From the NCBI RefSeq assembly GCF_910592395.1, contig NC_088309.1:11846599-11910598 (forward strand): DNA of 64,000 nt, written 5' to 3'. Below the pieces are notes generated by a model. It saw only the letters and a program-made list of their open reading frames with translations, did no database searches and had not been told where the DNA came from. The stretch comes from Lineus longissimus. Its lineage: Eukaryota > Nemertea > Pilidiophora > Heteronemertea > Lineidae. Within the stretch, counting starts at the first letter, position 1; each line of letters starts with the position of its first letter. Positions 25,760-60,637 of this stretch are shown piece by piece. The translations under genes were made by a program, and so were the position numbers.

Positions 25760-25761
25760 TT

Positions 25762-26650: not shown

Positions 26651-26985
26651 GCCAGAGGATCACTCCATGCTCACTGTATCATATGGGTAGGAAATGCACC
26701 CAGAATCGATGCTAATACTGATGAAGAAATCACAGCATTCATTGACCAGTATCAAACATGTGAACTAAATGACCTATCTGGGAAATATCAAAGTCATAGG
26801 CACTCAAGGACTTGTAGAAGGAACGGTGGCTGCAGATTTCATTTCCCAAGGCCTATATCACCATGTACCATTGTAGCAAGGAAACCTGACGTTGACGAAA
26901 ATGTCAATACAGAATCTGTCATAGCTTTACTGGGGAAAGTGTATGGAGTTCTGGAAGATCCTGACCTCAATGTAAATGCAACACT
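26651..26985 (+). pseudogene. Helentron Rep, first part (HUH motif)
   Basis: An open frame in phase with 26651 reads RGSLHAHCIIWVGNAP, the HUH histidine motif (HAH) of Helitron replication initiators, then EEITAFIDQYQTCEL, SHRHSRTCRRNGGCRFHFPR and SVIALLGKVYGVLEDPDLNV. These blocks follow the usual Rep order and spacing. The HUH histidines bind the metal for the nicking reaction that starts rolling-circle transposition. A stop at 26648 and the absence of the earlier Rep region show the 5' part is missing. The frame is interrupted at 26985 by the 1390-base insertion and resumes at 28385. Confidence 0.85.
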
Positions 26986-28375: not shown

Positions 28376-28384
28376 TGCAACACT

Positions 28385-28730
28385 CACTGATGTATTACAG
28401 AGAGCTGCTATCACAGAGGATATCTACTTGGATGCATTGAAAGTTTCCTCATCTGGTACTAACATTGTACTGAAGAGAGAAGTTGATGCAAGGTATATCA
28501 ATTGTTACAATTATGACATTCTGAGTACCTGGGAAGCAAACATGGACCTGCAGTTCATAATAGATCCATATTCATGCATCATGTACATATGCAGTTATAT
28601 GATGAAAAGTGAAAAGGTCATGGGTGATCTCCTACGGAATGTAGCCAAAGAACACCAATCCACTGAAATAAGACAGCAACTGGACAAAGTTGGTTCAAAG
28701 TTTTTAAACAGCAGAAGAGGCTGCATATAG
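28385..28730 (+). pseudogene. Helentron Rep, second part (tyrosine motif)
   Basis: In the frame open from 28326 to 28730, Rep sequence resumes after the insertion: TDVLQRAAITEDIYLDAL, then VDARYINCYNYDILSTWEAN, MDLQFIIDPYSCIMY and ICSYMMKSEKVMGDLL. The Y-x3-Y-x2-K arrangement (YICSYMMK) is the catalytic tyrosine motif of Helitron Rep. The first 20 or so codons of this open frame belong to the end of the inserted element and are not Rep. Near 28707-28720 a one-base shift puts the continuing sequence (EEAAYRLLSLPLK) into another frame. Confidence 0.85.
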
Positions 28731-30860
28731 GCTACTTTCTTTACCACTGAAAATGTCAACAAGAACGCATGAGTTCATTAACACTAATCCGCAAGAAAAG
28801 CGTGTTGCAATGGTTAAACCATCGGTTATTGTTCAAGACATGGATGATGAGAGAGAAGACCTCTTTTGTACAAGTATCTTAGAAAGATATGCTGCAAGAC
28901 CAGACATACTGCAGGACATGTGTTTAGCAGAATTTGTAGCAACCTATGCTGTAGATAGAAAGAGGTATGGTGATGATGATGTCAACGATCATGAACCGAA
29001 TGTAGTTGAAGTGGAAGAGCCAAGACAACGCAGTCCAAGGATTACTTTGAAAGATGGCTTAGGTCGCATGTACAAAAGGAAGAAAGAGGCCATAATCAGA
29101 TTCTTTAAACCAAAAGAAGGAGAAGATAAGAACAGACACAGGCTAATGTTGTATTGGCCTTGGCGAAGTGAACACATGCTGATATGTAATCATGATAGCT
29201 ATGAAGACCATGCAATGAAAGTAGCAGACATAATAACTGAAAATGAAAGAAAGTACACACACAACTTGGAGGACACTGATCAAATCATCAATGCTCTTGA
29301 TAACAATGAAATGCCACAGCATGCTTGGGATAAAATAGCACCAACTGTAGAAGCCCACGAGGCCCACGATAATGCAGAAGGCGAAGTTGTAGAACAAGAT
29401 GCCGGACCAATGGAACAGGAGAATGCTGATATTAAGAATATGTCTGTCAGAAAAGACAATACAATGTACTCTGAATTAAATGCCAAGTTTAACTCAGAAG
29501 CAAACAAGACGCTTATGACTTTTGAAGAGTACTGCAAAGGCATGCGATCTTTGAACCCCGAACAAAGGGATGTGATGTTAAGACATAGAAAGTGGTGCAA
29601 AGCTACCGTGATAGCTCTAAAAAACAACACAGAATTACCGGTTTATCACATCTTCTTAAATGGGCCAGGTGGTGTTGGAAAATCCCATATCATTAAGCTG
29701 ATACATTATGACACAATGCGTCTGTTACGCCTATCAGGCCACTATGAACCTGGAGAAGTCATTGCTCTTCTAACTGCTTTTACTGGTACTGCCGCTTTCA
29801 ACATAGATGGAATGACATTACATTCTGCGTTTTCACTTGGGACAGGTCGAGAGTACACACCATTAAACGCAGAAAAACTTAACACATTAAGGACAAAACT
29901 GGGCAAAATGAGATTACTTATCATAGATGAAATTTCAATGGTAGGTGCAGATCTATTCTTCAGAATACACAGGAGATTACAAGAAATAATGGGAACATCT
30001 GCAGAAACAGTGTTTGGAAATGTGAGTGTTCTAGCTGTTGGAGATCTCTATCAGTTAGCACCAATAGGCGACAGTCCTGTGTTTGGTCTTCCAAATAGTA
30101 GTCCATATGCCGAATTGTATGGCTCACTTTGGGTTAAGCATTTCAAAATGGTTGAACTGACAGAGATAATGAGACAAAGAGGTGATGCTTCATTTGGAAA
30201 TACATTGGGAAGAGTAAGAACGGCATCATGCACAAGTGATGATCTGCGAGTCCTGGAGACCAGGCTGATAAAAACTGACACTGATGTACCCCCAAACACA
30301 CTGCGAGTTTACAGAACAAATGCTGAGGTTGATGCCTACAATGAAACATGCCTTGCTGGGGTTGGTCAAAATAATGAAATAGTCACGATAGAAGCCACAG
30401 ACATCATGAAAACCAAAATAAAACATCTTCTGAATGCTACATCATCAAACAAAAGATCTGAAACAGGCGCTCTTCATACCAAGTTGAAACTAGCGACATC
30501 TGCTCGTGTCATGTTAGTAACAAATCTTGATGTATCTGATGGCTTAGTAAATGGTGCTATAGGCACTGTTGAAGGACTTATTTGGTGCAATACCAATGAA
30601 ACAGATATGCAAACTATCATGGTCAAATTTGACAGCCCAAAAGTAGGTCAAAATGCAATAGCTGGAAGTCCATACAAAGTCCAGTTCCCAAATGCAGTTC
30701 CAATAGGACGAACAGAGGTATCTTTCCCTGTAAGCAAGAGGAAAAGACACATTCAGATGACAAGAGTACAGTTTCCATTGACCCCATGTTGGGCGTCGAC
30801 TATACATAAAGTCCAGGGTAAAACAATGGACAGAATAGTTGTCTGTATCGTATGGAAAAG
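28711..30860 (+). pseudogene. Helentron Pif1-like helicase, main part
   Basis: The frame open to 30927 has an ATG at 28753, but similarity to Helitron proteins begins upstream of it, at about 28711, so that ATG is internal. The domain is a SF1B Pif1-type helicase: Walker A GPGGVGKS (residues 304-311 from 28753), the GTAAFNIDG block, Walker B LLIIDEISMV (D392, E393), AVGDLYQLAPIGD, and TIHKVQGKTMDRIVV. It unwinds DNA during rolling-circle transposition. Just after this last motif, near 30850, a shift moves the correct reading to the next frame, and the remaining codons to 30927 are spurious. Residues of the acidic stretch 190-235 are lineage-specific. Confidence 0.9.
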
Positions 30861-31718
30861 CATGGATGCGGACCACAGTTTATGCCTGGCCAAGCCTACG
30901 TGGCATTTAGTAGAGTCAAAGCATTAGATGGATTATATCTACTTGGGTTTGATGCATCTGGAATTAAGGTCTGTCCTAAAGTCGCAAAAGAACTGCAACG
31001 CTTGACAAATGAAAAACTTCCTTCACTCCAACAGATGTTTTCTACAGGAGCGAACATCCTTAAAGTGGTTTCACTGAATGTCAGGTCTTACAAGAAACAT
31101 TTACCAGACTTAAAATGTAACCCCATCATACAGAATGCAGATGTGTGTTGCTTCACAGAAACATTCCTCACTTGTAAGCAGAATATTCATGAAAATGACC
31201 TGATCAATGATGATTATCATGTCATACGTCATGAAAGACCTCTTTCTGGTCCCTTGTTAAAAGGTGTAATCATGTTAGCTACGAAGTCATGTCTACTACC
31301 CAACAAAGTACCTGATGTTCCCCAACAAGTAGAAATCCTCCCTTGTATCATTAAACCCCTCAACGCTGCTGTTATGAATATCATTACTGCATACAGAGCA
31401 TCTGCCACAACATCTGTTAACAGACTTATTGAACATTTGGAGAAATGTCTTGAAAAAGTTGATCTGTCCCTCCCAACTATAATTTGTGGAGATTTCAACA
31501 TTGATCTGAACAACACCAGTTCAGATCTGTCAAACAATTTAGTAGCAGCAATGCATGATTTGAATCTTAGCCAAGTGGTCAAAGGTCCAACGACTGATTA
31601 CGGATCAACACTTGATCATATTTATACAAACATACCAAGTGCCAAATTAAAGGTTTATGTGAGTGACTGTTACTTTTCTGATCATGATTTGGTATCTTTA
31701 GACATACTTTTAACATAA
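30852..31718 (+). pseudogene. Helentron helicase end plus AP-type endonuclease
   Basis: The first part carries helicase motif VI (GQAYVAFSRVKALDGLYLLG), which belongs to the preceding frame before the shift. It is followed in the same frame by an endonuclease/exonuclease/phosphatase fold: VVSLNVRSY, CFTETFLT, ICGDFNIDLNN, TLDHIYTN and FSDHDLVSL. A C-terminal AP-like endonuclease after the helicase is the hallmark of Helentrons as opposed to canonical Helitrons. The frame is intact to its stop at 31718. With two frameshifts and an insertion upstream, this copy cannot make its full protein. Confidence 0.88.
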
Positions 31719-34789: not shown

Positions 34790-35347
34790 TAACTCAACTT
34801 GGTGGTTTTAACCCTTTCCTTCCAACCTCATGACTTTAACCCTTTCTGACACATTTCCCAGTTCAAAATGCCAGTTCCTTATTCGTCTTAACGCATTTTA
34901 ACCCTCTATAACTCCACTTCCCGATTCAAATGCTGGCTCCCGATTCAGCTGCAAGTCCCTTTAACCCTTTCTGACTCCATTTCATTCATTTACAAGTCAC
35001 TTTAACCCTTTTTGACTCCATTTCCCGGTTCAAAATGCCACCTCCTTATTTGTCTTAACTCATTTTAACCCTCTATAACTCCATTTCCCTATTCAAATAC
35101 TGGCTCCCGATTCAGCTGCAAGTCTCTTTAACCTTTTCTGACTCCATTTCCGAGTTCAAAATGCCCAGTTCCTTATTCGTCTTAACTCATTTTAACCCTA
35201 TATAACTCCATTTCCCGATTCAAATACTGGCTCCCAATTCAGCTACAAGTCACTTTAACCCTTTCTGACTCCATTTCATTCATTTGCAAGGCACTTTAAC
35301 CCTTTCTGACTCCATTTCCCGGTTCAAAATGCCAGCTCCTTATTCGT
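34790..35347 (-). repeat. 167-base satellite, inverted minor block
   Basis: About three and a half units containing TTAACCCTTTCTGACTCCAT, GCCAGTTCCTTATTCGTCTT and GGCTCCCGATTCAGCTGCAA. These are the complement of the satellite that fills 56200-60637, so the same repeat lies twice in the window in opposite orientation, about 21 kb apart. Confidence 0.85.
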
Positions 35348-35580
35348 CTTCTGGTCCTTTTTTTACTGATTCCTCATGACACTTTTTTCATGTGCTTTTG
35401 AAAGATATATTATTCCCTCATAAGAGATGGTACCTATAAAGTGTTATAAATATGATGCAATTCTTTAGCGAAAAAAGGTTTAACCTGATAGTGATATATG
35501 TGTGGGGGTTAAAATGATGATTGGCTGTACCTTGAGTTCAAAATCACAACTAAACCTGCCTTCTTCATACTACACTGGTA

Positions 35581-37975: not shown

Positions 37976-40110
37976 TGTTAGCAGTCCTGTTTAAGCAAGA
38001 TGGGACAAGTGGTTCCAGATCCCTCACTAGGTCTCCTTCACAACCAGGTTAGTTGTGTTGAGTGCCAATGCTTGACAAGAAGATAGTATTCCATATGTTA
38101 CCGACGTGTGGCCGTTCACAAAAATGAAAAAGTCAAGATATCAATTGAATGCTGATATTCACAATTTATAATAACCCTTAAAGTATATACAATCTTAGTT
38201 CACAAGTCCATCAATATACGTCATACAGATAGTTCTCGGAACTTAACACCATTGTGATATTTGGTCCCACCTCAGGAGCGCTTCTCCAAGGCATTGCATA
38301 GGTTTCTGACGATCAGTCAATTACCAATAGTTGGGTTCTATCAGTACGTCGGGGTGGACGGCAACCGGTGAATACTGAAATGAGTAAAAGCAATAACTTC
38401 ATGGCAATTTTCATTCAATGATGAAGAGATAATTGAGCTTTTATAACCTAGTTTCAGGCCTCAGCCAGCTTTTTCAGCCACTCAAAGCGTTCAGGGAAAT
38501 AAAAAAAACCCGATCTTTTGTGACTTTCATGTGATTTGGATAGCAAAAGTCTTCCGAGATCGCACTCGATTTATCATTCCAGCCATTTAGTGACACTCCC
38601 GCATGTGACGAAGAGCTTGTCAATAATTTTGAATTTTATAGTTAAAACAGTGTGATGGACGAATCGGCCGCTTGGATGTGACATAATCGATCTAATGCGG
38701 TCGTACGACAACAGCCACTATAGTGAGGTTGAGATACACAACTTATCCCTAAACTTATACTTATAACTTATAGAATTTCCGGAATACGTCATCAACTATG
38801 GGGCTACATTTCCCACCAGTTACTTTATGGGATAAACCGAATATACCCTCCAATGAATACCCGCCTAATGCTTCAACGGCTAATGATTTAGTATTGAAAT
38901 ATTGTGAATGGAATCTGCAACGAAGATACAAAGGCCTGGTTTTGTCAGAATCCGTGAGGATAAAGCACAAATCAAGAAGAAAAGCATGTTTTGTAGGGCC
39001 TTTCGCTATTCGACGCGTCCAAATATTATCCCCGGGCCAAATTCAATCACTTCAAACTTGTCCACCGTGTTATAGACCGATTACGTGTACCATCTGGGTA
39101 ACATGTCACCAACCACTGCGGTTCTCTCATAAGGAACTGTTTCATATCGGTCGACTGGCCGTATCAAATTTCGGAAGTTCCTGAATAGGTATGCGACCAA
39201 AAGCATGATTTAACTTCTTAAAAAACGTTAAAACGCGACAGTGAGTTCAGGCCTTTGCACTTTGTGCGTACTAATTCTACGTCTACGGGACTTGGCCATT
39301 TCTGATACATCTTGACCATCAATGTTTATTGCATCTTTATAAAGATTTATTACACCCCGGCTATGTTTAAAGGAGTATAGGCCATGAGGTTCCGGATGTT
39401 TCTGATAAGGACATTCCAACTCATGTTGAAAAAAAGCGAATCCATTGTATTACTGAATTATATGCTATATAGTTGGGTGGCAGAAACACGTTCTTTTTGC
39501 GCGCATCTTATGCAGACTCTTTCTGATTTTACATACTCCAACACCATAGACAAAATTATGCTCGCGTCTTGCTACTAGTAGTGAATTTGTAAGTCGATGG
39601 GGTACAAAAATAAGTTTGATTTTACACTTATATTTCTTTGTACTTGCCTTTATATACAAATCTTGGCGATGTTTGCTGTCTAGTGGTACGCTGCCATTGG
39701 TGGAGGGCCAGCTTCTGAAAGTTTTAAGTAAAGAAATGGTAATTAAGTCACATTTAATAGCTCGGTTAATTATACCAGAGTCTTTCTATACAAAGACTCT
39801 GGTTATACCAATTTCGCGGCCGTCTGTCCTCTGGTCGCATTTCGTACACATGTACACCCGCTGATATTTACCAACGTGTAGTAAGATTTCCTTGTTAACA
39901 GAGGTTACCATTGACGATTTTTTTTAATTGAAATAAGTTGGGCACATATCTAATTAGTTGGTTGGGTTTTTTTTACTTCGGACAATGATACCTTTTTATT
40001 GTAAAATAAATATAATTTTAACATTCAAATTGGTCGGAACACTGCTTTATACTCTTAATGAGGTTTGATGTGATCGGAGTGTTAACTGGTAATAAGATTC
40101 TACATGAATT
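37976..40110. other. non-coding stretch, about 2.1 kb
   Basis: No domain-bearing frame. If the minus-strand coding region that follows belongs to a transposon, its 3' end should lie in this stretch, but no terminal inverted repeat was found by eye. Confidence 0.35.
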
Positions 40111-40923
40111 TCAAAACATTTTTTGCATACCTTTTGACGCCACGTCTATGAATTCTTCGATACACCGCTCGATGTGTCTCATCCATTGGTGGACCATTTG
40201 TTCATTGGGGTGGACTCCATCCGTTAGACCGCGTGCTGTGAACTTTACGATCTTGCGTCCACGTTGCTTCTTTGAAGTTTTTATTGCCGTTCTGTCAAGG
40301 CGAATGGCATTTGTTGCGTGCTGAAGTTGGATGATCTCCCTATTTACACGAGCAACAGACCGCTCTAGCTTTCGCTGCTGATCCTCTATTTCCTCATCTA
40401 GGTAACGACAGGGCCACAACTTCCTCTTTTGAGCGTTTGTAATATTGTATTTGTTAAGGAAAGCTGGTACTAGAGTCGATATTTTGACTCTGATGTTTTT
40501 AGTTTCAAAATGATTAAAAAAATCCTTTATCTGGTTGATCAGCGTAAAACAGTTTGCTTGGTTGAGGAAAACCAGCTCTTCACCTCCACGATGCTGTCGC
40601 TTCTCAGTAAGGTTGCATATACCTGCGATTAGAACTATTTTGATATCCTCCGGCCGAACGTTCCTGCGCGTCAGAGTGTTAACTTGGTAGTCTCCCTCAA
40701 ACTGCAGACGATCAATCGTTGCACCGGGCAAGACAACACAGTGCGTCTGAGGTTTTCTTTTGATCGTAGCAAGTCCCGGACCTGATAGCCTCGCGAGTCC
40801 ATCAAAAAAATCACTTGTTTCATTTTCTGAAAAGACAACATGGCCAAGTATACTGATACATCCCAACTCACTTTGAGGCCGTTGAAGCATGGCGAGGTTG
40901 CAGGTTGGCGATGGTATTATCAC
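40111..40923 (-). CDS. SGNH-hydrolase-like protein, transposon-associated
   Basis: A 270-codon minus-strand frame. Visible blocks are VVLPGATIDRL, which fits SGNH block II (glycine), VLIAGICNLTEKR, which occupies the block III position, and LTDGVHPNEQMVHQWMRHI near the C-terminus, which fits block V (DGxH, with the catalytic Asp and His). A clear GDS block I with the nucleophilic serine is not visible: the N-terminus has been replaced by sequence of the 49-base array. A coiled, basic stretch (EEIEDQQRKLERSVARVNRE) lies between. SGNH-like ORFs occur in several invertebrate retroelements and transposons. Either the gene is truncated at its 5' end by the array, or the first exon is beyond it. 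It shares strand and order with the protease and transposase frames upstream. Confidence 0.6.
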   Translation of the reverse strand: MIIPSPTCNLAMLQRPQSELGCISILGHVVFSENETSDFFDGLARLSGPGLATIKRKPQTHCVVLPGATIDRLQFEGDYQVNTLTRRNVRPEDIKIVLIAGICNLTEKRQHRGGEELVFLNQANCFTLINQIKDFFNHFETKNIRVKISTLVPAFLNKYNITNAQKRKLWPCRYLDEEIEDQQRKLERSVARVNREIIQLQHATNAIRLDRTAIKTSKKQRGRKIVKFTARGLTDGVHPNEQMVHQWMRHIERCIEEFIDVASKGMQKMF

Positions 40924-43136
40924 CCACCCATTGAAGCATGGTGAGGTTACAGGTTAGCGATGGCATTATCACCCACCCGTTGAAGCATGGCGAGGTTACA
41001 GGTTAGCGATGGCATTATCACCCACCCGTTGAAGCATGGTGAGGTTACAGGTTAGCGATGGCATTATCACCCACCCGTTGACGAATGGCGAGGTTACAGG
41101 TAAGCGATGGCATTATCACCCACCCGTTGAAGCATGGCGAGGTTGTGGGTTAGCGATGGTATTATCACCCACCCGTTGAAACATGGCGAGGTTGCGGGTT
41201 AGCGATGGTATTATCACCCACCCGTTGAAGCATGGTGAGGTTACAGGTTAGCGATGGCATTATCACCCACCCGTTGACGAATGGCGAGGTTACAGGTTAG
41301 CGATGGCATTATCACCCACCCGTTGACGAATGGCGAGGTTACAGGTTAGCGATGGCATTATCACCCACCCGTTGAAGCATGGCGAGGTTGTGGGTTAGCG
41401 ATGGTATTATCACCCACTCGTTGAAGCATGGCGAGGTTGTGGGTTAGCGATGGTATTATCACCCACTCGTTGAAGCATGGCGAGGTTGTGGGTTAGCGAT
41501 GGTATTATCACCCACCCGTTGAAACATGGCGAGGTTGCGGGTTAGCGATGGTATTATCACCCACCCGTTGAAGCATGGCGAGGTTGTGGGTTAGCGATGG
41601 TATTATCACCCACTCGTTGAAGCATGGCGAGGTTGTGGGTTAGCGATGGTATTATCACCCACCCGTTGAGGAATGGCGAGGTTACAGATAAGCGATGGTA
41701 TTATCACCCACTCGTTGAAGCATGGCGAGGTTGTGGGTTAGCGATGGTATTATCACCCACCCGTTGAAACATGGCGAGGTTGCGGGTTAGCGATGGTATT
41801 ATCACCCACCCGTTGAAGCATGGCGAGGTTGTGGGTTAGCGATGGTATTATCACCCACTCGTTGAAGCATGGCGAGGTTGTGGGTTAGCGATGGTATTAT
41901 CACCCACCCGTTGAGGAATGGCGAGGTTACAGATAAGCGATGGCATTATCACCCACTCGTTGAAGCATGGCGAGGTTACAGGTTAGCGATGGTATTATCA
42001 CCCACCCGTTGAGGAATGACGAGGTTAAATGTTAGCGATGGTATTATCACCCACCCGTTGAGGAATGACGAGGTTACAGGTTAGCGATGGTATTATCACC
42101 CACCCGTTGAAGCATGGCGAGGTTGTGGGTTAGCGATGGTATTATCACCCACCCGTTGAAACATGGCGAGGTTGCGGGTTAGCGATGGTATTATCACCCA
42201 CCTGTTGAAGCATGGCGAGGTTGTGGGTTAGCGATGGTATTATCACCCACCCGTTGAAGCATGGCGAGGTTGTGGGTTAGCGATGGTATTATCACCCACC
42301 CGTTGAAGCATGGCGAGGTTGTGGGTTAGCGATGGTATTATCACCCACCCGTTGAAGCATGGCGAGGTTGTGGGTTAGCGATGGTATTATCACCCACCCG
42401 TTGAAGCACGGCGAGGTTGTGGGTTAGCGATGGTATTATCACCCACCCGTTGAAGCATGGCGAGGTTGTGGGTTAGCGATGGTATTATCACCCACCCGTT
42501 GAGGAATGACGAGGTTACAGGTTAGCGATGGTATTATCACCCACCCGTTGAGGAATGACGAGGTTACAGGTTAGCGATGGTATTATCACCCACCCGTTGA
42601 AGCATGGCGAGGTTGTGGGTTAGCGATGGTATTATCACCCACCCGTTGAAGCATGGCGAGGTGGGTTAGCGATGGTATTATCACCCACCCGTTGAAGCAT
42701 GGCGAGGTTGTGGGTTAGCGATGGTATTATCACCCACCCGTTGAAACATGGCGAGGTTGCGGGTTAGCGATGGTATTATCACCCACCCGTTGAAGCATGG
42801 CGAGGTTGTGGGTTAGCGATGGTATTATCACCCACCCGATGAAACATGGCGAGGTTGCGGGTTAGCGATGGTATTATCACCCACCACTTGAGGAATGGCG
42901 AGGTTGCAGGTTAGCGATGGTATTATCACACACCCGATATCACGTTGAGGCTGTTGAAACATCGTGAGGTTGCGGGTTAGCGATGATATAATCACCCACC
43001 CGATATCACTTTGAGGCTGTTGAAGCATGGCGAGGTTGCGGGTTAGCGATGGTATTATCACCCACCCGATATCACTTTGAGGCTGTTGAAGCATGGCGAG
43101 GTTGCGGGTTAGCGATGGTATTATCACCCACCCGAC
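40890..43136 (-). repeat. 49-base minisatellite array, about 45 units
   Basis: Units read GTTGAAGCATGGCGAGGTTG, TGGGTTAGCGATGGTATTAT and CACCCACCC, with a measured period of 49 bases (42253 to 42302). Variants GAGGAATGAC and GAAACATGGC are interspersed in blocks, which suggests segmental amplification. At both ends the unit is longer, with CACTTTGAGGCTGTTGAAGC added (about 74 bases at the right edge, one such edge at 40861 on the left), so the 49-base unit looks like a deletion derivative of a longer ancestral unit. The left edge overlaps the start of the SGNH-like frame. Confidence 0.93.
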
Positions 43137-43232
43137 CTAACTTTGACATGATAGTTTAATTAGCGAAAAGATCTTGACGTATACACAGCAGCAATAATAC
43201 ATGAAGCAGCACGCATAGATTTTTTATTCATT

Positions 43233-44633
43233 TTAATCTGGCTTGTTTCTGTACAGACTGCTTATAATATTTGCTCTCTCTTGTTGCGTCTCAACGGAAC
43301 CTTTCATGTCGCTACGTACTTTGGCACTGGCACATCGCGAAAAATAGCAAACATATGCGCCACAGTCATTCGTATTTGTTTGTTGTGTGACCAGTGCCTG
43401 ATGTGCAGTGAATGAGTATTCAATCGACGGTGTGTTTGCCTCTATGTTGGCTTCAACTACTTTGATTGCAAGTCTTGCACAATCCAGCCTTCCATCCATG
43501 CATCCAGGAATTTCGAGAGAGTCATAGAGCGTGGCGGTTTTCCGCACCATGTCGACAGCGATCAAGAACCAATGACATCCTGTGTTTACTGGAAAGAATA
43601 TCAACTCGTAATTCATCAGATTCTCGTTCTTTGCCCATTTTATCAAATCCTTTGGGGTCTTGTCCTCTTTACTCAACTGCACGAACCATTGACTTTGGAA
43701 AGCAAACACCCTTGGGAATCCTTCCATCTTGCTTCTGTTACATATCAGACTGAGATATGCAGCTATAACTTTGTCATTGAACCAACCGATTCCCAGTATC
43801 CTTTGCATATCTCTGTTGGTCAGGCTATGTGTACCGAATTCTACGATGGTCTCTTCCGCTTTGCTTCTGATGCTTCCAAGCACAGAAACAAGGGCTTGTC
43901 GTTGAAGATCTTTTTCAGTGGCGGGGCTTGTGGTGCTGCTGCAACCTTTCGTTTCTGTCTGCTGGTTAACCTCCACATTAGCCTTCAGCTCGCTGTTGGG
44001 ACTCGCTTGCGCATTTTGCTTTTCATATATGATGACGTAGCTTTGATTAGATATTTCCTTGTCTTTCGGAATAACATCAATGCTATCATCATCGCAGCGT
44101 ACCCACGTTCCGTCTTCTTCCTTTACATGAGTGACGTAGTGGCCGACGTGGGCACTCGCGCCACGATGGACAATTATGGACCGCAGCGAAAAGGATGATA
44201 TTCCCTGCAGGTGTTTCATAGTCAACACATCTGCAGGTTCAACACGGGATTTCAACTTGCCACCCGCTTCACCTTGATTTCGTGAAATCACAAAAACAAG
44301 AACACTTGGTGGGCGACGTATTGCAGTTTCCCTGTGCATAATACCTCCATTACAGGGGCACTTACAATCGGGCAACGGTTCTTCTCTGATGTAATTATCT
44401 ATTACATCCTGTAGATATGTCACTCCGGCCTTGGACACGTTGACAATCAGCTCTGTGGATTCAGTATTCACTGGCTCTCCTACTCTGCCGCATTCGTGAC
44501 ATCGGATTGTTTGACTTATGGGAAAGTTGTTTATTTGCAATGCATGCATCATAGAACCAAGGCATCTCTGGAAGAATTCTTGTGCATCATTTTGTCGACC
44601 AAGAACTAAATTGGTACTACTTTTTGTCACTTT
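43233..44633 (-). CDS. USP deubiquitinase (main part) plus Ulp1/SENP-type protease
   Basis: A frame of about 466 codons with no ATG near its start (the first codons after a stop are AAA GTG ACA), so it is probably a continuation of the upstream frame. Residues 1-205 complete a C19 ubiquitin-specific protease: GRQNDAQEFF (QDA-box, about 10-18), a zinc-binding-like CHECGRVG and CKCPC pair, GHYVTHVKEEDGTWVRCDDD (His box, about 163) and SYVIIYEK. After a linker, residues 250-465 form a C48 Ulp1-type protease: GIGWFNDKVIAAYLSLI, ELIFFPVNTGCHWFLIAVD (His about 352), TLYDSL (Asp) and QQTNTNDCGAYVC (Gln and Cys, about 422). One polypeptide could thus remove both ubiquitin and SUMO. All catalytic residues of both except the USP cysteine, which is in the previous frame, are present. 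Confidence 0.85.
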   Translation of the reverse strand, partial: KVTKSSTNLVLGRQNDAQEFFQRCLGSMMHALQINNFPISQTIRCHECGRVGEPVNTESTELIVNVSKAGVTYLQDVIDNYIREEPLPDCKCPCNGGIMHRETAIRRPPSVLVFVISRNQGEAGGKLKSRVEPADVLTMKHLQGISSFSLRSIIVHRGASAHVGHYVTHVKEEDGTWVRCDDDSIDVIPKDKEISNQSYVIIYEKQNAQASPNSELKANVEVNQQTETKGCSSTTSPATEKDLQRQALVSVLGSIRSKAEETIVEFGTHSLTNRDMQRILGIGWFNDKVIAAYLSLICNRSKMEGFPRVFAFQSQWFVQLSKEDKTPKDLIKWAKNENLMNYELIFFPVNTGCHWFLIAVDMVRKTATLYDSLEIPGCMDGRLDCARLAIKVVEANIEANTPSIEYSFTAHQALVTQQTNTNDCGAYVCYFSRCASAKVRSDMKGSVETQQERANIISSLYRNKPD

Positions 44634-47600
44634 CTAAGGGTTCTTTCGATTACTGACCAGGGTATTGTGTCACCATGGTGATCACCGTATTTTACAAGGA
44701 GTGGAAGCACAGCTTTCCCACGATCTTCTTCATCTGTAAACATATCTTTTGGTGCACTCCTTAGTCCTTTTCCGGCTGCAGTCGACATGATAGCTTGAAC
44801 TGAAGCGTTTAACCAACAGTTATTCCTCCGGTTACCCATTTTTCTAAAACCGCGGTCAACCTTCAATGCCTTAGGCCCGGATTGTTCTTGAACCTGATTT
44901 TTAACTGATGCTTTGGCATGGCCAGCCGCTACCCTTGGTGTTCTAGCTGGCTTCTTCTTATCTCCATTAGTCCGTTTGACCTGATCTTTGTATGCACACT
45001 GCTTCTTCTCTTTACCTGTACCACTTTTTTCTTTTTTTCGTGCAGACTGTTTCATACCACCTCTCTTATGAACTGGTGTCTTCTTTTTATCTCTGCACCA
45101 GGTCTCTTCGGATAATTCTATAGTGATACTATCTGCTGTATCACTCTCTGGCTGCTTACTCCCTCGCCTTGCTTTTTGTCCTCTTTTCTTGGACCTCGAT
45201 TTTTGATACACCCCCTTTGTCTTATTCTTCTTCGGCGTCTTTCTGCCCTTCTTTCCCTTCTGAATGTGCGGAAACTCTCTTTCTCTCAGCCTACCCCTCA
45301 TTGTTTTCCTGAGTGCTTTTATTAAGAGAGCAGGCCTCAGCCCACGCTTTCTCCGTAGCACATCTATTTTGATGGTTTTAAACCATGCTTCAACGGGTGC
45401 ATTGGTGTCACGCGTCTCCTTCTCTTCATCTTCGCCTTCTCGAGCTTCAATGGCATCTGGTAGATATCGTTCCAGATTTCCAAGGAGCATCCCACTAATC
45501 AAAGGGTAGATGGGCATATATTTGCGAAGAAAGAGATCCAAGTGCTCCTCCGACTTGTGCGGGTTTGGCTCATCATCTTTATCTTCATTGAGTTCGATGC
45601 CATCGGCAATCTTCTGAAAGAACTCGGTGAATGGTGATGCTTCTCGAATTGTTCCACCATCGATGAATGGATCATGATCGCCATCACCGATAGGCCCAGG
45701 GTTCGTCACCTCTTCGTCATCTTCTTGGTTCAGTGCTGGTGCCATGTCCGTAATTCTCTTTACGGCCTCACTCACAGACTTGCTCAGGCGTTGACTCTTG
45801 AGAATGAGGCAGCAGTCTTTAAATACCACAGATGCTTCCTTCAGCCCAGTTGTATTAATTAAACAGGGAAACATCTGCATCAGCATTTTTCTCAGAGGTT
45901 TCCTCTTCTTGGTTGTGTCTCTTAGCTTTATTGCGAAATTGTGCATCATATGTGCGGTGCACAGATGTACCACCGTCAATTCCCCCACCAAACTGTATCG
46001 TTGGTGTACACTCATTGATATATTGAGGTACGCTTTGACTGACATTCGGTTAAATGTTTGGAGACTGCTTTGAATGAGGGACCAGCTCCAGTCGGTTTCC
46101 ACTTTCCTCGGATTTATGCGATGCTTTTGCTGAACTACACCTACTCTGAGAATGCAGCTGAGAAAATGGCATAGAGCTGGGACGGTATGGTCAGTTGTCA
46201 AAAAGTCAGCAACAGAGATTGGAGGCAGGTCCTCTACATCCTTTATGACAAGTGAGTACAAGAGTGATCTGTGCTGCTCGGGTATCTTCTGCAAAATGCT
46301 TCCTGTTGCATCAAAATATAGATCCAACTGGCCATTTTTGGACAAGTCACACATCAGGTCAACTTGCCTCCGGGAATACAAATGAACGTAGAATGGGTCC
46401 GCAGAAATGTTCTGAATATATCCCATACCTGGAACATCTCCATCTTCATCCAAATACACGCGTTTTAGCAACATCACCTCTTGAATGAAATCATGATGAA
46501 GGATTTCCTTCGCCACTATTTCTGACACCGCTTTGCGCAGAACGACCTGTGATGGACAGCGCGTCAGATTGCCAGCCTCCAGTTCTTCTTGAGGAGCATC
46601 AGCTAAATTTTCATAGAATTGGTTTGCCACGCCAATCCGTTTTGCCTCATCCGCCACTGTTCTTCGATTTCTTGCTGTCAATGGCATTCTACTTGGTACA
46701 GTTTCGTTATGGCAAATTGCACCACCAAAACTTTGACAGTCGACCATAACAGCTTCCTTTAGATCAGGCTCCTCGTCAATGGTAAAGAGGAAACGTGCTT
46801 GGCACAGTTCTCCGGTGCACCTAGCTTTGCCGCGAAAAAATACAGATGAGGACTTCCTTGATTTTGGTCTATGCACACGATTAAAGAAAAAAGACAGTAC
46901 ACATTCAGGGTGCTTCTGGTTAAATTTGTCGTATAATAACTTTGTCCACTGTCCCGTGAGTTTTCGCTGTCCTCCGGCACTAAATGTTGGTTTTACCCTC
47001 TTCCATTCTTCGACAGTAAGACTCATTTTGAATGACAAAGGATTATCATCATCCCTGCTGCCCTCGGCATCCTCATTCCTGCCCGTCAATCGTTCATTAT
47101 CATTATCCCCGCCACTATCGCCATCCTCATTCTGTTCTGTCAATCTTTCATCATCGCTCCCGCCTTGGTCTTCAATCTCCTTCTGTTCTGTCAATCTTTT
47201 ATTATCGCTCCCGCCTTGGTCTTCAATCTCCTTCTCTTCTGTCCATCTTTCATCATCACTCCCGCCTTGGTCTTCAATCTCCTTCTCTTCTGTCCATCTT
47301 TCATCATCACTCCCGCCTTGGTCTTCAATCTCCTTCTGTTCTGTCAATCTTTCATCGTCACTCCCGCCTTGGTCTTCAATCTCCTTCTCTTCTGTTAATC
47401 TTTCATCGTCACTCCCGCCTTGGTCTTCAATCTCCTTCTGTTCTGTCAATCTTTCATCGTCACTCCCGCCTTGGTCTTCAATCTCCTTCTCTTCTGTCAA
47501 TCTTTCATCGTCACTCCCGCCTTGGTCTTCAATCTCCTTCTCTTCTGTCCATCTTTCATCATCACTCTCGCTTTGCTCTTTAATCTCCTTCTGTTCTGTC

Positions 47601-48253
47601 AATCTTCTATCATCACTCTCGTATCGTTCCTTAACCTCCTTCTCTTCTGTCAATCTTCGCTCTTTGTCGTCATCATCCCTGTTATTCTCCTCATCCCCTT
47701 CCTGACCCATCAAACTATTTGATATTTCGTATCTAGTCCATGATTTTCGCTTCTTTGGGGGTATGAGGCATTCATCCGTATCCTTTTCAAATTGTCTCTT
47801 GCGCAGAGGCAGCCCTATTTCGTATTCAGTGCTATTGTACCGTCTCGGCCTTCGAGACTTACGCTTCGGGCCGCGGGGCTTCTGTTCCGTCATTTCATCA
47901 TCAACCCTCCTAATGCGCTCTTCAACCTCATTCTGGCTCGTCAATATTTCATCGGCATCATCTCTGTCGCTCTCGTCAACCTTTATAATACCAGTTATTA
48001 TTTCGTCAACCCTACTATCCTCTTCAACCTCTCCCTGAGCAATAAATGTATTTGACATTCCGCCGCTACCTTCTCTCCCACCCATGGCATCTGGCATGAC
48101 CTGCGTATTCGATGGAAAAGTCCACGATTTTCGTTTCTTAGGGGGTAAAAAGCTTTCATCTTTAATTTCGTCCATGTTTCTCTTCCGCAGAGGCAGCCGT
48201 TTTTGGTATTTAATGCTCGGTCTTTGATAATTACGCTCTTGGTCGCGGGGCAT
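44627..48253 (-). CDS. Mutator/NOF-like DDE transposase with USP cysteine box at its end
   Basis: A 1208-codon frame starting at the ATG 48251-48253. Residues 1-430 are disordered and acidic, with two copies of an LPLRKR...PPKKRKSW basic nuclear-signal-like segment and a 17-residue tandem repeat. Residues about 430-560 resemble the N-terminal region of NOF/Mutator-type proteins (CTGELCQARFLF). The catalytic core shows LYFDATGSILQK (D648), VETDWSWSLIQ (D721), HLCTAHMMHNF and PVEAWFKTIKID (E955), a plausible DDE triad. Residues about 980-1120 are basic and lysine-rich. The last 70 residues start a USP domain with the catalytic box NNCWLNASVQAI (C1146). The frame stops just before the rest of the USP, which continues in the -1 frame. 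The superfamily call is from motif pattern; another DDE clade is possible. Confidence 0.75.
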   Translation of the reverse strand: MPRDQERNYQRPSIKYQKRLPLRKRNMDEIKDESFLPPKKRKSWTFPSNTQVMPDAMGGREGSGGMSNTFIAQGEVEEDSRVDEIITGIIKVDESDRDDADEILTSQNEVEERIRRVDDEMTEQKPRGPKRKSRRPRRYNSTEYEIGLPLRKRQFEKDTDECLIPPKKRKSWTRYEISNSLMGQEGDEENNRDDDDKERRLTEEKEVKERYESDDRRLTEQKEIKEQSESDDERWTEEKEIEDQGGSDDERLTEEKEIEDQGGSDDERLTEQKEIEDQGGSDDERLTEEKEIEDQGGSDDERLTEQKEIEDQGGSDDERWTEEKEIEDQGGSDDERWTEEKEIEDQGGSDNKRLTEQKEIEDQGGSDDERLTEQNEDGDSGGDNDNERLTGRNEDAEGSRDDDNPLSFKMSLTVEEWKRVKPTFSAGGQRKLTGQWTKLLYDKFNQKHPECVLSFFFNRVHRPKSRKSSSVFFRGKARCTGELCQARFLFTIDEEPDLKEAVMVDCQSFGGAICHNETVPSRMPLTARNRRTVADEAKRIGVANQFYENLADAPQEELEAGNLTRCPSQVVLRKAVSEIVAKEILHHDFIQEVMLLKRVYLDEDGDVPGMGYIQNISADPFYVHLYSRRQVDLMCDLSKNGQLDLYFDATGSILQKIPEQHRSLLYSLVIKDVEDLPPISVADFLTTDHTVPALCHFLSCILRVGVVQQKHRINPRKVETDWSWSLIQSSLQTFNRMSVKAYLNISMSVHQRYSLVGELTVVHLCTAHMMHNFAIKLRDTTKKRKPLRKMLMQMFPCLINTTGLKEASVVFKDCCLILKSQRLSKSVSEAVKRITDMAPALNQEDDEEVTNPGPIGDGDHDPFIDGGTIREASPFTEFFQKIADGIELNEDKDDEPNPHKSEEHLDLFLRKYMPIYPLISGMLLGNLERYLPDAIEAREGEDEEKETRDTNAPVEAWFKTIKIDVLRRKRGLRPALLIKALRKTMRGRLREREFPHIQKGKKGRKTPKKNKTKGVYQKSRSKKRGQKARRGSKQPESDTADSITIELSEETWCRDKKKTPVHKRGGMKQSARKKEKSGTGKEKKQCAYKDQVKRTNGDKKKPARTPRVAAGHAKASVKNQVQEQSGPKALKVDRGFRKMGNRRNNCWLNASVQAIMSTAAGKGLRSAPKDMFTDEEDRGKAVLPLLVKYGDHHGDTIPWSVIERTLRK
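47147..47640 (-). repeat. 51-base repeat encoding 17-residue acidic units
   Basis: About nine to ten tandem units lie within the transposase frame, each translating to DERLTEEKEIEDQGGSD or a near variant. The period of 51 keeps the frame. The antisense strand is also open over the same stretch because of this composition, which creates long false frames there. The units suggest a flexible acidic spacer. Confidence 0.9.
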
Positions 48254-49605: not shown

Positions 49606-50533
49606 CGGCGGGCAGAAAATGCATGCTGCATACCGTCTGCAGACTGGGGGTTTTCTCATGAGCCAATAGAATCTAAGGTCTGGAATTAGGGGACCATATC
49701 AGCAGTTGCTTTCAGCCAACTTCTGTTTTAAAATTAAGATCTGGAATTAGGCGACCATCTCAACAGTTGCCATGTGATTTTCACACTAAAAAATAAGAGG
49801 CCATTTCAGGTATATGCCAAACGGTAGAACAAAGATTATCTAGGCCGTTGTGCAAACAGGCTTTGCGATACACCACGAGTTGGGGTGTAGGCCTAAATTC
49901 CTTTAACTGTGAACCAAGTGCATCCACTGGCACGCTACATGTATGTGTGACTCGCACGGATTTAGCACGTAGGGCCCACATGATGCTAATCAGCTAGGAT
50001 GTATCTTGTGACCAGGACTGTAGTAATAAACATTTGCCTGAAAACATTTTTTATTTGGCCTAACAACACCTGTTTAGAATGTCAAAGAGGCCGGTATTTT
50101 CACTTAACATCAAGAGACAGAGGAGAACTGTCAAGGTCGGTGTTTGATATACAATGGTTTTCTGTTCCCTGGGTTTCTTCATTCTGTTATCTTTAATTAT
50201 ATTTACCCATGTCATTCAGCACTTTTTATCATGAAATGCTGCCTTTGAAACGAACCCAACCTTGCCGGCCAATCAACCAGGCGCACGAGGCACAACAGGC
50301 CGATACAATATACATGTTCTTTATTAAGTACGTCATCTGTCATGCACACCCAAAAAAAATCTTCTTGCAAGATGATTCACAGGTATTTCAAATATAAGAA
50401 AACAAACTTTGAAAAAAAGTTGGCGCAAAGCAACTACTGATATGGTCCCTTAATTCCAAACCTTAGATTCTATTGACTCATGAGAAAACCCCCAGTCTGC
50501 AGACGGTATGCAGCATGCATTTTCTACCCGCCG
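49606..50533. mobile_element. 928-base TIR element with 10-base target duplication
   Basis: Ends begin CGGCGGGCAGAAAATGC and, complemented, CGGCGGGTAGAAAATGC. Inverted arms extend for about 115 bases with few differences (shared words CATGCTGCATACCGTCTGCA and GGGGGTTTTCTCATGAG). CATTATTTCC flanks both sides (49596-49605 and 50534-50543). A subterminal word, TCTGGAATTAG, is repeated at about 49740. There is no transposase. Long TIRs and 9-10 base duplications fit non-autonomous Mutator-like elements. Confidence 0.9.
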
Positions 50534-55995: not shown

Positions 55996-56199
55996 GTTTA
56001 AAATTATTACTCTGAAAACTGTTTAAAATAGTCAGATCCTGTTTAAAATAGTCAGAAACTGTTTAAACTAGTCAGATCGTATTATCCACAAACATATGAT
56101 ATAGTAGTGGCCATACTAAATACAGCAACTGCGGTCATCCGCCTATCACCTGATTGTACGAGAAACTTCAGACTTAGCTGAGCAGGCTTAAAATGAGAA
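55996..56199. repeat. short CTGTTTAAAATAGTCAGA tandem and flank
   Basis: Three to four units of about 22 bases at 56018-56080, then unremarkable sequence leading into the satellite. Confidence 0.7.
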
Positions 56200-57058
56200 A
56201 GGGTTAATGAGACTTGCAAATGAATGAAATGGAGTCAGAAAGGGTTAAAGTGACTTGTAGCTGAATAGGGAGCGAGTATTTGAATAGGGAAATGGAGTTA
56301 TAGAGGATTGAAATGAGTTAAGACGAATAAAGAACTGGGCATTTTGAACCGGGAAATGGAGTCAAAAAGGGTTAAAGTGACTTGCAAATCAAGGACGATA
56401 CCGCGGTGACGTCACGGCTTTTCCAAGATGGCACTGCATATTGTAAACAAACTCGATCCACGGCATTTTGAAATGGGAAATGGAGTCAGAAAGGGTTAAA
56501 GAGACTTGCAAATGAATGAAATGGAGTCAGAAAGGGTTAAAGTGACTTGTAGCTGAATCGGGAGCCAGCATTTGAATAGGGAAATGGAGTTATAGAGGAC
56601 TGAAATGAGTTAAGACGAATAAGGAACTGGCATTTTGAACTTGGAAATGGAGTCAGAAAGGGTTAAAGTGACTGATAGCTGAATTGTGAGCCAGCATTTG
56701 AATAGGGAAATGGAGTCAGAAAGGGTTGAAATGAGCTAAGACGAATAAGGAGCTGGCATTTTGAACCGGGAAATGGAGTCAGAAAGGGTTAAAGTGACTT
56801 GTAGCTGAATCGGGAGCCAGCATTTGAATAGGGAAATGGACTGATAGAGGGTTGAAATGAGTTAAGACGAATAAGGAACTGGCATTTTGAACCGGGAAAT
56901 GGAGTCAGAAAGGGTTAAAGTGCCTTGCAAATGAATGAAATGGAGTCAGAAAGGGTTAAAGTGACTTGTAGCTGAATCGGGAGCCAGCATTTGAATAGGG
57001 AAATGGAGTTATAGAGGACTGAAATGAGTTAAGACGAATAAGGAACTGGCATTTTTTG
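56200..57058 (+). repeat. 167-base satellite, first block
   Basis: Tandem units contain GGAGTCAGAAAGGGTTAAAG, TGACTTGTAGCTGAATCGGG, AGCCAGCATTTGAATAGGGA and GAGTTAAGACGAATAAGG. Each unit holds two copies of the GGAGTCAGAAAGGGTTAAAG word. The block is interrupted at 56390-56463 by a transposon-end segment and ends at the foldback element. Confidence 0.9.
56390..56463 (+). mobile_element. solo end of the 26986-type TIR element
   Basis: CAAGGACGATACCGCGGTGA and the following 50 or so bases match the end of the 1390-base element at 26986-28375 in inverted form, up to CTCGATCCACG. There is no second end; satellite sequence resumes directly at CATTTTGAA. Confidence 0.85.
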
Positions 57059-57616
57059 AGGTAACCGGAAAAACGCCGACCGACCGACCGACCGACTAAC
57101 CTGCCAACCTACCGTCATATGCAGTATCCCTTTTGCTTCTCTATAGCACATGTATCTGTGTAGTGCCCAGCGCAATGGACATGATGGAGTCCGACGTGTC
57201 GGACAGCAGCAGGTCATTTGAAATGAAATTGTAAACGAGCGCACGTGCGCTGTTCAAATGACAACAAATGCATATTGCGCGTTGCAGTTCATGCATTGCA
57301 TCGGTCGAGACACTCGAGTAGAAAAACTACAGTGCATAGATTAGGCCCAAATCATGTTTTTATATCCACCGACCATGTAGACAAAGCATATCTTTAGAGT
57401 ATCGTTATCAGTTCCTTACCGCGTGGGCTCGTTTTCCCGGTATAATTGACTGGAGATGCTGCTTTCAGACACGTCGGATTCCATCACGTCCATTGCGCTG
57501 GGCACTACACAGATACATGTGCTATAGAAAGCGAAAGGGATACTGCATATGACGGTAGGTTCGCAGGTCAGTCGGTCAGTCGGTCGGTCGGTCGGTCGGC
57601 GTTTTTCCGGTTACCT
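57059..57616. mobile_element. 558-base foldback element
   Basis: Arms of about 155 bases, starting AGGTAACCGGAAAAACGCCG with a (GACC)n run, are inverted with over 90 percent match by eye. TTTTTTG flanks both sides (57052-57058 and 57617-57623). It has inserted in the satellite's CATTTTGAA word. There is no coding frame that is not an arm artefact. Confidence 0.88.
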
Positions 57617-57956
57617 TTTTTTGAAGCAATATTCCTGTTTGTCACTGTTACAATACACCTTGGGATTTCACCCCAGACTGACCATAAAATTCCTAGGCCA
57701 AGGTCGGCATGGTCTGTGTGTTAACAGAACAGGTAAAGATGAAACAGCATGCTTCATGCTAAACTGGACATTGCATGATAGGCAGTATATCCACACCTGA
57801 TGCATTGCAATTTTTTTAGCTTAAGCTGAAATTGGACGGAGAGTTCTGACCTGGCTACAGGGAGTCTGTGTCAGTAAGTAGGCCACGCAATAGCATACAT
57901 TATATAGGCCGCAGGGATGTGTACTATTTTCAAGTTAGGTCGAGATAGAGGCCAGA
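57617..57956. other. non-satellite spacer
   Basis: Unique-looking sequence between the foldback element and the second solo TIR end; nothing recognised. Confidence 0.4.
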
Positions 57957-58016
57957 CAAGGACGATACCGCGGTGACGTCACGGCTTTTCCAATTGTAAA
58001 CAAACTCGATCCACGG
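57957..58016 (+). mobile_element. second solo end of the 26986-type TIR element
   Basis: The same CAAGGACGATACCGCGGTGA end, with an internal deletion of about 14 bases compared with 56390, joined to satellite sequence at exactly the same point (CCACGG then CATTTTGAA). The shared junction means the satellite lies inside, or has been captured by, this element family. Confidence 0.85.
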
Positions 58017-60637
58017 CATTTTGAACTGGGAAATGGAGTCAGAAAGGGTTAAAGTGACTTGCAAATGAATGAAATGGAGTCAGAAAGGGTCAAAGTGACT
58101 TGTAGCTGAATCGGGAGCCAGTATTTGAATAGGGAAATGGACTTATAGTGGGTTAAAATGAGTTAAGACGAATAAGGAGCTGGTATTTTGAACCGGGATA
58201 TGGAGTCAGAAAGGGTCAAAGTGACTTGCAAATGAATGAAATGGAGTCAGAAAGGGTTAAAGTGACTAGTAGCTGAATTGGGAGCCAGCATTTGAATAGG
58301 GAAATGGACTTATTGAGGGTTAAAATGAGTTAAGACGAATAAGGAACTGGCATTTTGAACCGGGAAATGGAGTCAGAAAGGGTTAAAGTGACTTAGTGCA
58401 AATGAATGAAATGGAGTCAGAAAGGGTTAACGTGACTTGCAGCTGAATCGGGAGCCAGCATTTGAATAGGGAAATGGACTTATAGAGGGTTAAAATGAGT
58501 TAAGACGAATAAGGAGCTGGCATTTTGAACTGGGAAATGGATTCAGAAAGGGTTAAAGTGACTTGCAAATGAATGAAATGGAGTCAGAAACGGTTAAAGT
58601 GACTAGTAGCTGAATCGGGAGGCAGTATTTGAATAGGGAAATGGACTTATAGTGGGTTAAAATGAGTTAAGACGAATAAGGAGCTGGTATTTTGAACCGG
58701 GAAATGGAGTCAGAAAGGGTCAAAGTGACTTGCAAATGAATGAAATGGAGTCAGAAAGGGTTAAAGTGACTAGTAGCTGAATTGGGAGCCAGCATTTGAA
58801 TAGGGAAATGGACTTATTGAGGGTTAAAATGAGTTAAGACGAATAAGGAACTGGCATTTTGAACCGGGAAATGGAGTCAGAAAGGGTTAAAGTGACTTGC
58901 AAATGAATGAAATGGAGTCAGAAAGGGTCAAAGTGACTTGTAGCTGAATCGGGAGCCAGCATTTGAATAGGGAAATGGAGTTATATAGGGTAAAAATGAG
59001 TTAAGACGAATAAGGAGCTGGCATTTTGAACTGGGAAATGGATTCAGAAAGGGTTAAAGTGACTTGCAAATGAATGAAATGGAGTCAGAAACGGTTAAAG
59101 TGACTAGTAGCTGAATCGGGAGCCAGTATTTGAATAGGGAAATGGACTTATAGAGGGTTGAAATGAGTTAAGACGAATAAGGAACTGGTATTTTGAACCG
59201 GGAAATGGAGTCAGAAAGGGTTAAAGTGACTTGCAAATGAATGAAATGGAGTCAGAAAGGGTTAAAGTGACTAGTAGCTGAATTGGGAGCCAGCATTTGA
59301 ATAGGGAAATGGACTTATTGAGGGTTAAAATGAGTTAAGACGAATAAGGAACTGGCATTTTGAACCGGGAAATGGAGTCAGAAAGGGTTAAAGTGACTTG
59401 CAAATGAATGAAATGGAGTCAGAAACGGTTAAAGTGACTAGTAGCTGAATTGGGAGCCAGCATTTGGATAGGGAAATGGAGTAATATAGGGTTAAAATGA
59501 GTTAAGACGAATAAGGAACTGGCATTTTGAACCGGGAAATGGAGTCAGAAAGGGTTAAAGAGACTTGCAAATGAATGAAATGGAGTCAGAAAGGGTTAAA
59601 GTGACTTGTAGCTGAATTGGGGGCCAGTATTTGAATAGGGAAATGGAGTTATGTAGGGTTAAAATGAGTTAAGACGAATAAGGAACTGGGCATTTTGTAC
59701 TGGGAAATGGAGTCAGAAAGGGTTAAAGAGACTTGCAAATGAATGAAATGGAGTCAGAAAGAGTTAAAGTGACTTGTAGCTGAATTTGGAGCCAGTATTT
59801 GAATAGGGAAATGGACTTATAGAGGGTTAAAATGAGTTACGACGAATAAGGAACTGGCATTTTGAACTGGGAAATGGAGTCAGAAAGGGTTAAAGTGACT
59901 TGCAAATGAATGAAATGGAGTCAGAAAGGGTTAACGTGACTTGCAGCTGAATCCGGGAGCCAGCATTTGAATAGGGAAATAGACTTATAGAGGGTTAAAA
60001 TGAGTTACGACGAATAAGGAGCTAGCATTTTGAACCGGGAAATGGAGTCAGAAAGGGTTAAAGTGACTTGTAGCTTAATCGGGAGCCAGCATTTGAATAG
60101 GGAAATGGAGTTATATAGGGTTAAAATGAGTTAAGACGAATAAGGAGCTGGCATTTTGAACCGGGAAATGGAGTCAGAAAGGGTTAAAGTGACTTGCAAA
60201 TGAATGAAATGGAGTCAGAAAGGGTTAAAGTGACTTGTAGCTGAATCGGGAGCCAGCATTTGAATAGGGAAATGGACTGATAGAGGGTTGAAATGAGTTA
60301 AGACGAATAAGGAACTGGCATTTTGAACCGGGAAATGGAGTCAGAAAGGGTTAAAGTGCCTTGCAAATGAATGAAATGGAGTCAGAAAGGGTTAAAGTGA
60401 CTTGTAGCTGAATCGGGAGCCAGCATTTGAATAGGGAAATGGACTGATAAAGGGTTAAAATGAGTTAAGACGAATAAGGAACTGGCATTTTGAACTGGGA
60501 AATGGAGTCAAAAAGGGTTAAAGTGACTTGCAAATGAATGAAATGGAGTCAGAAAGGGTTAAGTGACTTGTAGCTGAATCGGGAGCCAGTATTTGAATAG
60601 GGAAATGGACTTATAGAGGGTTAAAATGAGTTAAGAC
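58017..60637 (+). repeat. 167-base satellite, main block
   Basis: About 15 to 16 units; successive GTTAAGACGAATAAGG words are 166-170 bases apart (58331, 58501, 58668, 58834, 59002, 59169). Sequence variants such as GACTTATAGAGGG, GACTTATTGAGGG and GAGTTATATAGGG alternate, which suggests a higher-order period. Confidence 0.93.

Follow-up and report, generated by a model that had tools for sequence, protein, structure and literature searches.

In this study, a stretch of 64,000 nucleotides from the nemertean Lineus longissimus (contig NC_088309.1 of assembly GCF_910592395.1, positions 11,846,599 to 11,910,598; hereafter the window) was analyzed, and it was found to contain a transposase joined to two proteases, a ubiquitin-specific protease (USP) and an Ulp1-type SUMO protease. 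The coding region lies on the minus strand in two frames. Frame A begins with an ATG at 48253 and ends with a stop codon at 44627, and frame B spans 44633 to 43233 (Table 1). Their stop-free stretches are 1216 and 466 codons long, while the longest frame among 60 random 64-kb first-order Markov sequences of similar dinucleotide content had 273 amino acids. Frames A and B belong to one protein, which a break divides in the window copy. A transposase-USP-Ulp1 fusion lineage is very likely real, and it likely is or was mobile. The window element is probably a decayed member of a DNA transposon lineage having an acidic N-terminus, a DDE transposase, a basic linker, a USP, and an Ulp1 domain, behind which come a minisatellite and an SGNH-like frame; the proteases would act in cis.

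A sequence-only reading of the window had proposed that the transposase frame ends in a USP Cys box and that the next frame has the USP QDA and His boxes followed by an Ulp1 catalytic set. This order was confirmed by the UCH and Peptidase_C48 profiles as well as by the motifs, and the coordinates proved exact. Frame B matches positions 78-254 of Pfam UCH (2.7e-21). Once the tail of frame A is read on into frame B with an X at the break, the match extends to positions 4-254 of 254 (7.1e-25), while the tail of frame A is weak by itself (0.058). The read-through piece has the Cys, QDA, and His boxes and the zinc fingers of a USP. The nearest solved USPs are USP36, another UCH-type chain, and USP14. 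The Ulp1 part of frame B matches Peptidase_C48 (PF02902; 1.3e-17), and its top match in a phmmer search of solved structures is SENP1 (4.5e-21), SENP1 and SENP2 being the nearest solved Ulp1 relatives. The His-Asp-Gln-Cys set is present within the C48 domain. The single-sequence structure prediction of frame B was unusable (predicted local distance difference test score 32.9).

The two frames had been read as serial. Both are indeed present in the window, but the separation does not hold for the copies on contig C3. In all three C3 copies, the Cys box, the USP junction, and the Ulp1 domain lie in a single frame without a break. Since these copies are tandem relatives, their read-through counts as one event seen three times. 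The Cys-box piece is also in frame with the USP in both of the C20 copies. In the window copy, the reading frame stays open from the transposase to the end of the Cys box, and the break comes after it. Thus, the window and the C3 copies together indicate one ancestral frame, and the gene of this lineage was most likely one long frame, as far as the sequences allow me to infer. In one C3 copy (L009), the core, linker, USP, and Ulp1 all lie in one frame interrupted by two stops. All three C3 copies have two stops, one within the core and one in the linker ahead of the USP, and the other two copies (L010 and L011) additionally shift frame inside the core. The 7-nucleotide overlap of frames A and B is small for a random one-base change; an overlap of 7 nucleotides or fewer arose in 2.4% (frame A) and 1.1% (frame B) of simulated changes. 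A programmed -1 frameshift at 44627-44633 was rejected, since no canonical slippery heptamer was seen by eye and the C3 copies read through unshifted. A 62-nucleotide intron at the junction was also rejected; it would take out the part of the USP ahead of the QDA box, and the C3 copies are uninterrupted here.

Is this combination found elsewhere in the same genome? I searched the 391-Mb, 30-contig assembly with frame B and found at least 21 matches, a lower bound. Besides the window itself, there are three full-length copies on C3 (98% identity), four places on C20 (55-94%), two places at about 2.06 Mb of C17 (72 and 92%), one copy each on C9 (39%), on C17 at about 3.43 Mb (39%), and on C10 (40%), and eight matches at 22-29%. 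The near copies lie on C2, C3, C20, and C17 and the 39-40% copies on C9, C17, and C10, so that frame-B-like sequence of at least 39% is spread over six contigs. The two places at about 2.06 Mb look like one copy split by an insert, and the eight weakest matches look like host proteases. No match has an identity between those of the 22-29% group and of the 39-40% copies, and this gap is evidence against a host gene having been captured recently.

Ten loci with frame-B-like sequence of at least 39%, the window included, were opened for inspection. A transposase lies upstream in eight of them; at 2.06 Mb of C17 the upstream sequence is too short to judge, and the C10 slice has no transposase match in 4.7 kb upstream. 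An Ulp1 match lies downstream in seven, in full in the window, the three C3 copies, and the C9 copy, and as the first 100-104 residues only in two C20 copies. Ulp1 was not seen in the downstream sequence of the C17 loci at 3.43 Mb (about 4 kb) and 2.06 Mb (1.3 kb) or of the C10 locus (0.3 kb). The sequence-only reading had named copies without the protease parts as evidence that would count against it, and the pairing is present in eight of the ten loci. If a protease gene merely stood next to an unrelated transposase by chance, unpaired copies would be expected, and this failed in the same eight loci. The frame switch between the transposase and most of the USP in the window copy would fit such chance neighbors. 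However, the transposase frame includes the Cys box both in the window and in a database relative (P0002, below), the C3 copies have one frame from the Cys box to Ulp1, and the order repeats on C9. Thus, chance neighborhood has next to no probability.

The units on C3 and C20 are products of tandem amplification. In the C3 units, which are preceded by a minisatellite plus about 0.3 kb of different sequence, similarity to the window ends at 46708. In the C20 units, it ends at 47235 and 43581, and another minisatellite adjoins the 47235 end. These tandem units of part-element and minisatellite (L009-L011 on C3, L012-L013 on C20), which start or stop at the same window positions, resemble young macrosatellites.

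At C9:10996001, the order of transposase, Cys box, USP, and Ulp1 recurs in a second family, which is 20% identical to the window element in the transposase and 39% in the USP and Ulp1 parts. The C9 copy scores 9e-24 against C48 and 8.5e-14 against UCH. It retains the USP fingers and His/Asp boxes as well as the W/ND, HW, YDSL, and NDCG motifs of Ulp1, and with them the His-Asp-Gln-Cys residues. This locus is the strongest argument for an old three-part order, and the combination appears to be ancient and common to both families. A third locus, on C17, is more decayed and shows pieces of a transposase, a Cys box, and QDA and His boxes. A piggyBac-like transposase frame (labeled by eye) is inserted in this decayed third family (L022, C17:3429001-3439000).

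The transposase had been called Mutator-like. The fold of the core agrees with this, being an RNase-H-like DDE fold with a helical insert of the IS256/Mutator-like element (MULE) type; the nearest fold is ISCth4, in a comparison whose listed entries include no eukaryotic Mutator transposase. Sequence models do not agree. None of the eight aligned members (the window and its relatives) matches a transposase model in Pfam, MULE and Transposase_mut included, at E values up to 10, so that the profile check proposed for the two frames succeeded for UCH and Peptidase_C48 but not for the transposase. No PHD finger is among the Pfam families listed for frame A, frame B, or the relatives. Among 5.8 billion proteins, seven relatives of the core were found (25-61% identity). 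Both catalytic Asp residues are invariant in the window and all seven relatives, and the catalytic Glu is present in five; P0004 and P0007 stop short of its position. In one of the seven, P0002 (45%), the transposase frame runs into a USP-like Cys box that aligns with the window box at E 3e-6 in a single comparison. P0002 also has an acidic repeat at the position equivalent to the minisatellite of frame A. With frame B, none of 3630 candidates in the protein search reached E 0.001. Scans of viral contigs and of prokaryote genome contigs gave no relatives, and Rfam gave no match at the gathering score.

Behind the coding frames of the window, C3, and C9 copies lies a 49-nucleotide minisatellite, an arrangement of the Rehavkus kind (minisatellite behind the transposase gene). 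The 2.2 kb behind this array, including the SGNH-like frame, are 97.5% identical between the window and C9, though the coding parts differ widely. Thus, the block is probably a shared or exchanged 3' module. The SGNH-like frame has no SGNH or lipase match in Pfam. It was first placed outside the element, as the C3 and C20 loci match, if at all, only minisatellite residues, and this was reversed by the presence of the same block on C9. The element therefore probably continues past 43233 into the array and the SGNH-like frame, to judge from this alignment. The unit of 43233-48253 that had been proposed is exact for the frames but probably too short for the element. The block end at 38718 was possibly set by a mariner-like insertion in C9 (seen by eye) and is therefore no proven terminus.

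Table 1. Features of the window element and its 3' surroundings (window positions).
Feature	Position	Strand	Basis or remark
Frame A: acidic N-terminal region, zinc-binding-like region (motif reading), DDE transposase core, basic linker, C-terminal USP Cys box	44627-48253	-	
51-nucleotide coding minisatellite, acidic 17-residue repeat inside frame A	47126-47657	-	
Transposase catalytic span: D656 (YFDATGS), D729 (ETDWSW), CxAH, E963 (APVEAWF)	45380-46318	-	motifs and fold; YFDATGS 46298-46318, ETDWSWSL 46076-46099, HLCTAH 45950-45967, APVEAWF 45380-45400
USP Cys box NNCWLNASVQ	44795-44824	-	same or close box in L009-L013 and L021
Frame break within USP domain	44627-44633	-	not in C3 copies
Rest of USP domain: QDA box, CxxC fingers, His box, Asp	44025-44624	-	Pfam UCH 2.7e-21; QNDAQEF 44574-44594, GHY 44124-44144, CDDD 44082-44105
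Ulp1 (Peptidase_C48) domain, His/Asp/Gln/Cys set	43308-43784	-	Pfam and SENP1 match; WFND 43767-43784, HW 43560-43580, LYDSL 43515-43529, QQTNTNDCG 43359-43388
66-nucleotide minisatellite units immediately 3' of the coding frames	42888-43146	-	
49-nucleotide minisatellite array, 42 copies	40879-42936	-	like array after Ulp1 frame in C3 and C9 copies
SGNH-hydrolase-like frame	40111-40953	-	label from motifs; broken in C9 copy
Block 97.5% identical to sequence behind C9 array	38718-40900	-	probable 3' module of the element

Terminal repeats were sought together with target duplications of 8-10 bp. A seeded terminal-repeat scan of the window gave no pair. In a wider terminal scan, the top pairs join 28359/28360 with 56405/56406 and with 57972/57973 (at most 17 of 20 bases, with duplicated TGACGTCA or GTGACGTCAC). 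They were set aside, as the duplicated word is palindromic and the sites belong to a family of repeats. The best remaining pair agrees in 13 of 20 bases. The terminal inverted repeat (TIR) expected behind the minisatellite in a Rehavkus-type element was not found. One minisatellite family occurs at 34833-35350 and 56196-60637, mutually inverted and flanking the element on both sides. The same family flanks truncated element units on C20 in direct orientation, and a reading of these arrays as foldback-like ends was not used.

A number of observations weigh against a transposon lineage with this three-part protein. No credible TIR or target duplication was found around the window element, and a scan of 16 kb at C9 gave neither a target-duplicated terminal pair nor an inverted pair more than 3 kb apart. 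No copy was seen to be open throughout, and stops, breaks, truncation, or the loss of a residue affect every copy examined. On C9, the tail is out of frame with the transposase, a stop falls on the Gln of the QDA box, and the presumed catalytic Glu site reads Gln (by eye, as the alignment ends before this site); thus, this copy is dead too. In the C17 copy (L022), the Cys of the Cys box has changed to Arg. The ratios of nonsynonymous to synonymous substitution rates among the close copies are uninformative because of few differences (0.28-1.13 for USP and 0.32-1.66 for Ulp1). As for the database relatives, the Cys box of P0002 is weak alone (UCH 0.0086, under the curated cut-off; USP21 E 0.35), and P0002 as a whole has no UCH match. 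P0001 and P0003, two of the seven, share a different tail after the linker (36% identity, VPRWGG ... TCxxDN), and the remaining four end before or shortly after the linker. Thus, the tail varies in this lineage. The P0001 tail has no significant Pfam match, and a USP-like nature of this other tail is only a lead.

Could the window copy derive from a domesticated host gene, that is, an immobile, transposase-derived USP-Ulp1 protein with decayed, tandemly amplified relics? The small number of copies (the counts being lower bounds), the tandem units on C3 and C20, and the lack of a detected TIR or target duplication would agree with this. However, all examined copies are broken, the sequence of at least 39% identity lies on six contigs, and diverged families coexist, as is typical of transposons. 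Domestication is therefore improbable. Since credible terminal repeats are lacking and the C3 and C20 copies are tandem, I infer mobility, and the DDE-type fold and motifs of the core point to cut-and-paste movement. As for the claim of one mobile unit, the same domain order does occur at other loci including C9, but common terminal repeats were not found.

In the transposon reading, the transposase would bind its own element, and the fused proteases would be carried to the element ends and act there in cis. SUMO can serve as a silencing mark on transposons and attract SUMO-targeted ubiquitin ligases. The USP may deubiquitinate the transposase or the chromatin close to it, which would spare the transpososome from degradation, and the Ulp1 domain may remove SUMO from the complex or nearby silencing factors. 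Together, the two proteases would overcome a pathway that proceeds from SUMO to ubiquitin. Such local removal of ubiquitin and SUMO could plausibly be the selected function, with the chances slightly short of even. The main rival is that the protease module, instead of protecting the transposase or its chromatin, chiefly steers host DNA repair or checkpoint signaling where the element is excised or inserted. A repair role was proposed by the Ginger authors for Ulp1 and OTU domains, as given in an excerpt of their paper (PMC2836005), and the module accompanies the transposase in two diverged families. However, nothing here separates repair from stability or silencing, and the repair role seems rather unlikely.

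Host USP and Ulp1 sequences might also be carried along without function, given that MULEs tend to acquire host gene fragments (excerpt of PMC6446971) and that some relatives have another tail. In contrast to this expectation, the catalytic motifs persist in two families that are 39% identical here, and conservation is higher in the proteases than in the transposase. Passenger capture thus appears a little less probable even than domestication. Returning to the transposon lineage with functional proteases, a bolder form can be put forward tentatively, and I consider it somewhat doubtful. An ancient animal lineage would have carried the transposase, the deubiquitinase, and the SUMO protease in a single polypeptide, with the dual protease more constrained than the transposase and removal of both modifiers essential to the life cycle. 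Related transposases would swap the tail for another conserved module, and the minisatellite and SGNH-like 3' block would stay nearly unchanged between families. In this form, the 39% identity of the proteases against 20% of the transposase between families reflects stronger constraint on the proteases; the alternative is a tail exchange between families.

Other features of the window were also noted. A LINE-like (long interspersed nuclear element) frame with endonuclease and reverse transcriptase domains lies at 7436-10771, and Helitron-like frames with a PIF1 helicase, followed by an endonuclease-like frame (read by eye), at 25714-31718. A 445-base repeat at 27864-28308 has inverted copies at 12702-13146 and 13170-13613. 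The frames at 14261-15268 and 20064-21143 are 36% identical to one another, the latter without a Pfam match. A short inverted pair at 49606-49727 and 50412-50533 (93% complementary) resembles a miniature inverted-repeat transposable element.

Ubiquitin and SUMO proteases recur in unrelated transposons. If the reading is true, a single protein would make it possible to ask which of the two modifiers limits transposition and whether the element targets control by SUMO followed by ubiquitin. The lineage also suggests the exchange of transposase tails. The comparisons below refer to excerpts of the cited papers. Ginger1 of animals resembles the window element in that its DDE transposase carries an Ulp1 or OTU protease at the C-terminal end of the same polypeptide (PMC2836005). 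It differs in its Gypsy-integrase-type transposase and in having OTU or Ulp1 but not both, with no USP reported; the single lancelet family listed there has neither (PMC2836005). Mutator-like elements with Ulp1, including a MuDR-type element of B. floridae, share Ulp1 and a Mutator-type transposase with the window element, while no USP is mentioned for them in the excerpt (PMC2836005). Such elements could be relatives of the window lineage. Rehavkus, a Mutator relative, has a minisatellite behind the transposase gene and before the 3' TIR, but its PHD finger, TIRs, and 9-bp target duplication were not seen in the window element, and the excerpt mentions no proteases (PMC6446971). The MULE groups listed there have target duplications of 8-11 bp, and some animal groups lack TIRs (PMC6446971). 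Helitrons with VTD and OTU domains (121 cases) likewise combine two deubiquitinase-type domain classes in one mobile element; unlike the window element, they are rolling-circle elements with other protease families, and no SUMO protease is mentioned in the excerpt (PMC9741609). A transposase_11 protein of T. vaginalis is joined to a USP-type protease (Peptidase C19), but it belongs to another transposase superfamily, with no Ulp1 mentioned in the excerpt (PMC2836005). A transposase with both USP and Ulp1 was not among the titles and abstract openings listed (for instance, 25 of 264 and 15 of 324 matches where many papers matched), in a search that covered mostly open literature outside Repbase reports and subscription journals. 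Thus, transposons with ubiquitin or SUMO proteases were already known, and what appears to be new here is the presence of USP and Ulp1 together on one transposase.

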